Source of the DNA: Acidobacteriota bacterium
GTDB taxonomy: Bacteria > Acidobacteriota > Terriglobia > UBA7540
Direction of reading: 5' to 3'
NCBI GenBank assembly: GCA_004298155.1
Contig: SCRD01000024.1
Location: 1-64,000, forward strand
DNA: 64,000 bases
Shown here: positions 40,428 through 41,326 of the stretch, piece after piece
Numbering within the stretch: position 1 is the first letter of the stretch
Layout of the letters: each line of letters opens with the position of its first letter
The notes under the pieces: generated by a model
What the model was told of the DNA's origin: nothing
The model's input: only the letters and a program-made list of their open reading frames with translations
Database searches by the model: none
Translations under genes and position numbers: made by a program

Positions 40428-41107
40428 AGCCGCAGATTTGCAGGATATATTTATCGTGACGGCTTTGCCCTCGTGCCACACGACCCTCTGGGTTGCCACG
40501 AAGTGGGCCATGGAACACGCCCGGCGAGCGGTTTCTCTCTTCGAGGCCATCGCAAGCCTCCGGATTTCGCTTGACATGGCTGGCCTAGTATGGTAGTCTT
40601 CCTGGTGTGCAGGAAGGTGGGCGCACAAGGCGCCACAGGCAACCGCGAAGCGGTGCGATGGGGGGCTAGTTACGTGGCTTTTTGGGACAAATGGGACAAA
40701 AAAATTCGTTTTTTGAAAAACGAACCGGAGAAGTTATTGAAAACACAGAGTCGAGTCTGAAAAACGAACCGGAACGAACCGGAGAACGAAGCGGAGAAGT
40801 TGTTGAAAACACGTACTAATTGAAAAAACGAACCGGAAACGAACCTAAAATGAAGCGAGCTATGTTGCTGAAAACACGTGATGGCGAAAATCTGAAGAGG
40901 TGAAGTCTTTGCCCGCCGAGATGGCTAGCACACTTGCCCAACGCGGGGTGCAGCGACGCCACTTTCTTGGCCAGCATCCAAACGAACTGCGAGCGTCCCC
41001 TGCAACGTAAAAGGGTCCCCTGCCTATGACTTCCGCGTGGGCAGGTGGCTTAAGTGAGGCTGGATGTGACCGGATTCCAGCGCGGGCTTCAGTCGAGCAA
41101 CCTCAGC
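40428..41107. other. Non-coding region, part of it repetitive
   Basis: No gene over 60 codons with credible content. It has a short hairpin ACCGC-GAA-GCGGT (40641-40653), the tract of aacgaaccgga-type repeats (separate entry), and a GC-rich end with the small ORF on the minus strand starting beyond it. Confidence 0.35.
40674..40886 (+). repeat. Three degenerate repeats of about 45-64 bases around aacgaaccgga
   Basis: Units at about 40715-40758, 40759-40821 and 40822-40885 each contain aacgaaccgga and gttgttgaaaacac or gttattgaaaacac. In the first two units these encode NEPEKLLKT or a near relative, in the third NEPET-NLK, but in different frames and with stops in between. The tract opens with a perfect 9-base stem TTCGTTTTT / AAAAACGAA (40705-40724). 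A 28-codon frame from GTG 40674 exists but is unlikely to be a gene. Confidence 0.6.
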
Positions 41108-41326
41108 CTACCACACTGCGGCTACAAGACCTTTGACCGTGTTTGCGACCGTCGGCAATCCGGAAGCAACCTGGGAAGCGAATATCGCCCCGGCAATGAA
41201 GAGTGTCAACACGACCCATAAACCGAGGCCTCGAGGCTTCTTGTCCCACCACTTTTTCTTAACAGGCGGGTCGGGAGCTCCATGAATGAAGATCAGACCA
41301 CCTGATTTTTCCAACCGGATCGCCAT
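41108..41326 (-). CDS. Small single-pass membrane protein (hypothetical)
   Basis: 72 residues from ATG 41326, preceded closely by GGGGAGGGGAA, a good SD. A short soluble, basic N-terminus (WWDKKPRG) leads to one membrane helix, LGLWVVLTLFIAGAIFASQV. No family recognised. The unusual Pro-Pro-Val-Lys-Lys-Lys-Trp-Trp stretch suggests membrane-interface binding. Confidence 0.45.
   Translation of the reverse strand: MAIRLEKSGGLIFIHGAPDPPVKKKWWDKKPRGLGLWVVLTLFIAGAIFASQVASGLPTVANTVKGLVAAVW

Follow-up and report, generated by a model that had tools for sequence, protein, structure and literature searches.

The described systems closest to the repeat examined here are MITEs with promoters (review PMC10969869), REP/BIME sequences with RAYT transposases (PMC2817692, PMC3733652), and CRISPR or iteron arrays. 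Examples of the first are the Correia elements of Neisseria, which carry promoters. The element described here resembles such MITEs in being short, non-coding and mostly intergenic, in its dozens of copies, in that it may supply promoters to neighbouring genes and in the internal-deletion origin of some copies. REP/BIME sequences are likewise dispersed intergenic repeats, and our element too stands in some relation to a gene (STGPR, single-copy in three genomes). CRISPR or iteron arrays share with our locus short repeats at regular spacing, but the tract comprises 2-3 degenerate units, with no distinct spacers between them, and recurs at some 40 places.

The tract lies in a stretch of 64,000 nucleotides (the window) of an Acidobacteriota genome (G000; 5.21 Mb in 29 contigs). 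We consider it the inner part of a MITE-like, non-autonomous, promoter-bearing dispersed repeat that has been partly co-opted as gene leaders, a reading to which we give a probability of roughly 0.6.

Organization of the element

An earlier note on this DNA had described a repeat tract with shared blocks and a 9-base stem at 40674-40886. We find three degenerate units with a 66-nt period, together with a 9-bp palindrome, at 40683-40890, and the tract has the top score (176) of the 20 rows that Tandem Repeats Finder reported for the window. The blocks AACGAACCGGA and GTTRTTGAAAACAC are both found in it, the GTTRTTGAAAACAC family three times at 65-66 nt (repeat families D1-D3), and the sequence model R1 matches at 40705-40794 and 40795-40869. 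The observation of the note is confirmed; the conserved unit, however, is larger, spanning about 370 bp (about 40562-40929) in the order promoter-like block, variable leader, TGGGACAAA array, tract and CTAG box.

40562-40600, plus strand: promoter-like block GGATTTCG-CTTGAC-N5-TGGCCTAGTATGGTAGTCTT, from pattern searches (conserved core 40570-40599).
40601-40682, plus strand: variable leader between block and tract, from copy comparison by eye; its last part (GGCTAGTT...TGGCTTTTTGGGAC) resembles copy L012.
40683-40704, plus strand: two-unit TGGGACAAA array, from tandem-repeat search (the repeat itself at 40683-40700).
40705-40724, plus strand: 9-bp palindrome TTCGTTTTT-TG-AAAAACGAA, the hairpin of the earlier note, read from the sequence.
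40717-40879, plus strand: degenerate repeat tract, 66-nt period in 2.5 copies, with blocks AACGAACCGGA and GTTRTTGAAAACAC, from repeat finding; found at 39 further places in the genome.
40923-40929, plus strand: GGCTAGC box (CTAG at 40925), presumed right end of the element, from CTAG enrichment after the tract.

The first AACGAA unit begins with the 3′ arm of the palindrome. The hairpin is perfect in the window, as had been noted, but it is not a family feature: a minority of copies have it, and in the copy list, read by eye, changes in the 5′ arm are not accompanied by corresponding ones in the 3′ arm. In other copies the tract is adjoined by GGGACAAA/GAGACGAA arrays.

Taken as a promoter, the block upstream has the form TTGACN, 17-18 nt, TAGYCT, with a TG-type extension. 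In the window it consists of a -35-like TTGACA (40571-40576), a 17-nt spacer containing a CTAG half-palindrome, and a -10-like TAGTCT preceded by TGG. Aligned copies have in common CTTGAC, 5-6 nt and TGGCCTAGYATGGTAGYCT, most often about 90 nt upstream of the tract, with a CTAG palindrome in the spacer (GCTAGCATGCTAG in two copies of the same-genus species G002). With up to 3 mismatches allowed, the block pattern has 22 matches in the genome and the reversed pattern has 0. A looser pattern was found upstream of 28 of 37 G000 copies and once in 138,402 bases of flanks; the corresponding counts were 20/27 in G001 (also of the same genus), 4/8 in G002, 6/8 in G026, 0/4 in G014 and 0/7 in G003. 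A generic sigma-70 scan called no promoter at the block, whose second hexamer matches at 3 of 6 positions by our own count. Among the 28 G000 copies with a block, its distance to the tract ranges from 78 to 361 nt, and the content between them differs. Several copies (L014, L016, L017, L018, L054, L055, L057) have, by eye and in whole or in part, an inverted palindrome pair directly before the block, GTAGCCACGGTCAG...CTGACCGTGG and CCACGGACAGG...GTCCGTGGCTAC, similar to a GTAG-tagged REP doublet. In longer copies (L048-L053, L059-L062 and others) the leader holds a little stem-loop resembling AGTCTGRAYAGACT, after which come TTAAT and a stretch of TTTTGGNACTAAAATTGTG; judged by eye, some changes in this hairpin look compensatory and some break it.

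At the other end, of the 48 G000 and G001 copies that bear the promoter block, 33 have a CTAG 110-330 nt after the tract start, and 24 of those 33 have it at 203-228 nt. CTAG density after the tract in G000 is 3.6 per kb (19 of 37 copies) versus 0.30 per kb in the right flanks, about a 12-fold difference.

Copies in the genome and its relatives

We observe 39 other places in the window's genome that match the tract, well beyond chance, with E values from 8e-71 to 9e-11 and, the window's own copy included, 74-100% identity. These 40 places are the 40 scored among 49 candidates, some being fragments; two 5′ parts and two 3′ parts stop at contig ends and may be two halved copies, giving about 38-40 copies or more. 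Four of the 40 reach the end of a contig, which is typical of near-identical repeats. The same-genus genomes had 40 (G001) and 17 (G002) reported matches. In a first search with DNA, 17 of 61 genomes had matches, every one of them in the window's family. A sequence-only model built from 23 copies gave matches at E <=1e-4 in 29 of the 200 genomes that represent the class: 23 of the family's 39 members, counting the window's genome, and 6 from a single other family, where each had 1-4 matches. Stretches of G002 and G026 recur letter for letter within the Acidobacteriota MAGs JAJYLL010000004.1 and JAMCXS010000018.1, respectively.

A search of this genome and its relatives had been proposed in the earlier note, which would have dropped its case for units that proved unique and not conserved; with about 40 places here and copies in 23 of 39 family genomes, the units are neither. 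An exact 27-base tract pattern had 0 matches in viral contigs, and we reject a viral origin of the tract on this ground. The repeat is without description in the libraries used here, and in the partly available literature our search found no paper on the STGP motif text (see below) or on such repeats in Acidobacteriota.

Neighbouring genes and the STGPR gene

Genes were called with a codon-score script, not a gene finder. By these calls, the downstream gene is in sense orientation in 26 of the 36 own copies that have one (p 0.011). At the window's copy a 72-aa minus-strand ORF (41108-41326) escaped the script; part of it matches G001 at 81%, and with this ORF as the next gene the count becomes 25/36 (p 0.029). 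The next gene is in sense in 20 of 27 G001 copies (p 0.019), a sample that includes sites common with G000 and is not independent. Upstream genes in G000 have no orientation bias (20 to 14), and 20 loci of other genera divide into about 12 sense and 8 antisense. The gap to a sense downstream gene is between 52 and 1173 nt. We selected ten downstream genes of likely housekeeping function, to which NCBIfam gave these names: serine hydroxymethyltransferase, MnmG, Lon, dihydropteroate synthase, FdhF/YdeP oxidoreductase, dihydroorotase, EF-G, RuvC and, twice, IMP dehydrogenase. The last has the tract upstream in two genera (L015 of G000 and L194 of G019), which could arise by chance given about 40 copies.

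One copy, L058, contains a gene of 310 aa whose 3′ end lies in the opening bases of the tract; we named it STGPR for its STGPR motif. A single intact STGPR is present in each of G000, G001 and G002, and G026 has one of 59% identity; a tract follows the gene in every case. Fragments of it persist in four short copies. In L013 and L019, the region upstream of STGPR and its start are joined to its last codons by a deletion between TGGAA words (by eye), and in L120 and L121 of G002 the promoter block is followed by the last 47 codons and then by the tract. These four copies therefore derive from a gene-bearing form by internal deletion. A tblastn search for STGPR fragments in the other fetched loci found none, but the short fragments of L013 and L019 escaped it too. 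The case for STGPR as the partner of the tract is weakened by genomes that have one without the other: G014 (88% complete) has 19 tract matches and no STGPR match, and in G030, G015 and G023 STGPR matches strongly while the tract has no match. Of the 28 STGPR loci read, only 5 have at least two tract units downstream.

STGPR had no match in Pfam or NCBIfam, and its three PHROG matches had E values of 0.1-0.34. We set its identification as a transposase aside on the missing Pfam and NCBIfam matches. Its AlphaFold model is all-helical but weak (pLDDT 60, two-sequence alignment). A reading of its HVH motif as an HUH nuclease motif was rejected, the motif being absent, by eye, in distant members. 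An N-terminal STGP motif of about 35 residues recurs in phage proteins at 18 virus-contig loci (L157-L174), and 8 of these proteins, when scanned, gave two weak terminase small-subunit matches below the curated cut-off. It is possible that the motif is a common, putatively DNA-binding piece. By eye, L117, L118, L119 and L123 have a TGGGAC array and a AAGCATAGCAGG-like block inverted upstream of STGPR, so that in these four genomes the gene is flanked by inverted arrays.

The earlier note had offered a relic of a repeated-peptide gene, a protein-binding array or a structural RNA as explanations of the tract. A protein-binding array is conceivable, with Rho or a protein as a possible binder of the 10-12 nt phased AACGAACC. 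In favour of a coding relic, with the tract as the C-terminus or 3′ end of a gene for a repeated-peptide (NEPEKLLKT) protein, are copies that stay open for at least 60 codons in one frame, and intact STGPR genes that run into the first bases of the tract; in both G000 and G002, however, STGPR stops at those bases, and the peptide frame differs between copies. In the frame starting ATGGGACAAA, mean divergence by codon position is 0.097/0.113/0.098 for the 35 of 77 copies with that start, and the other 42 are without it. As codon positions diverge equally, we rejected a small protein in the tract and regard the coding relic as highly improbable. What survives of the gene-relic proposal is a relic of another kind, the pieces of STGPR left in four copies, the intact gene ending in the tract; the repeated peptide finds no support. 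We give equally little credence to a structured small RNA family. Dispersed copies with a promoter-like block upstream would fit one, but RNAalifold gave the consensus of 73 tract copies -0.04 kcal/mol versus -0.06 for column shuffles, the fold of the window stretch had a z of -0.37, and the tract had no Rfam match. A structured RNA was rejected on these results, and this proposal of the note thus finds no support for the tract.

Probable movement, apparent concerted change and likeness to known elements

Evidence of movement comes from contig C41 of G001, where the methyltransferase gene upstream of the window's copy and the small minus-strand ORF downstream are both kept, about 287 bp apart versus 719 bp in the window. 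Between these genes we found no tract match and, by eye, no promoter block; the site of the window's copy is therefore empty in G001, and presence of this copy differs between species. The rest of the intergenic stretch has diverged too far for the ends to be placed exactly. The genes of G002 that match the copy's neighbours lie on different contigs. Several features expected of a MITE are present: the element is short (under about 600 bp) and non-coding with many dispersed copies, and an internal-deletion origin holds for the four copies with STGPR fragments. No target-site duplication was found, as the longest word common to left and right flanks averaged 5.27 both for true and for shuffled pairs, with the element ends placed approximately. 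As to terminal inverted repeats, we saw none of ordinary length; only CTAG-containing boxes lie near both element ends, and the inverted pair reported by the repeat finder is internal. Because a test gave no target duplication and terminal inverted repeats could not be made out clearly, we do not file the element as a MITE.

We found 14 sites in G000 and G001 with a common neighbour gene (11 by the right gene, 3 by the left), from which it follows that many copies are old; 8 of the 14 form a single alignment from the tract far downstream. Yet tracts at the same site are not clearly more alike than tracts of different sites (mean identity 0.764 versus 0.757 for permuted partners, p 0.08), and identity within genomes is 0.83 in G001, 0.84 in G002 and 0.78 in G000 versus 0.76-0.77 between genomes. 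The variants of a species occur across its sites: all 39 G000 copies are dominated by CGAACCGG, the 30 G001 copies by CAAACCGG (13) or CGAACCGG (17), and 6 of the 8 G002 copies by CGAACCCG. Gene conversion or re-insertion would explain these species-wide variants, with constraint plus mutation bias as the rival.

In that rival, copies are alike only through selection on binding motifs or a common mutation bias (for example CG to CA in G001), and neither conversion nor transposition takes place. The G001 variant CAAACC versus CGAACC is indeed a CpG-type change, and the p of 0.08 leaves room for a weak same-site signal; the empty site in G001 and the deletion derivatives at several places nevertheless need movement or duplication, and we judge this account very unlikely. 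We also think it unlikely that the copies are a family of regulatory 5′ leaders, serving as control elements of a host regulon under a trans factor that binds DNA or RNA, and multiplied by ordinary duplication with no selfish element. The sense bias upstream of genes points this way, as do the 14 common sites with their 8 extended alignments, the CTAG palindrome in the promoter spacer with a CTAG box downstream, and the tract upstream of IMP dehydrogenase in both G000 and another genus. Against it, the next gene is on the other strand in 10 of 36 own copies and probably also at the window's copy, the 20 loci of other genera divide into about 12 sense and 8 antisense, no conserved RNA fold was found, and 22 loci of G026, G014 and G003 had no high-identity neighbour match at the same side of a G000-G002 copy.

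The MITE-like, promoter-bearing repeat has points against it as well, and we count as such the missing target duplication, the diverged empty site, the want of an ordinary terminal inverted repeat, the mismatch of STGPR and tract across genomes, the 14 common sites, and gene calls that come from a script. On balance, the element probably works like a MITE, and some copies may be leaders of ordinary genes. A typical copy consists of a promoter-like block, a variable interior, a TGGGAC array and the AACGAACC/GTTGTTGAAAAC tract, often with a CTAG box near the end. It would have spread as a non-autonomous, MITE-like mobile element through a mobiliser acting in trans, for which intact STGPR is a candidate only. 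Copies landing in sense before genes could supply a promoter and a 5′ leader and might then be retained between species, and gene conversion or repeated re-insertion would keep copies alike within a genome. A bolder version, which we hold to be quite doubtful, joins promoter block, tract, CTAG box and STGPR into a new mobile regulatory system. STGPR or another factor would recognise, spread and homogenise the repeats, installing one common promoter-leader, its sequence drifting in step in each species, before dozens of genes, housekeeping genes included.

If the MITE-like reading is right, the repeat gives promoters and leaders to many Acidobacteriota genes, central ones included, and its copies appear to change in concert. 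A defined element with an empty site and a candidate partner gene offers a handle on how such repeats spread and stay alike. Compared with REP/RAYT systems, the element is not a 20-40 bp palindrome, and its candidate gene is without a Pfam or NCBIfam match; the alignment of copies contained no 20-40 bp palindrome with a GTAG or CGTC tag, and the GTAG-type palindromes beside some copies are, by eye, a separate repeat. Compared with Correia-type MITEs, it is without clear terminal inverted repeats, a detected target duplication or a known transposase partner, and it is distinguished by a purine-rich degenerate tract and a variable interior.
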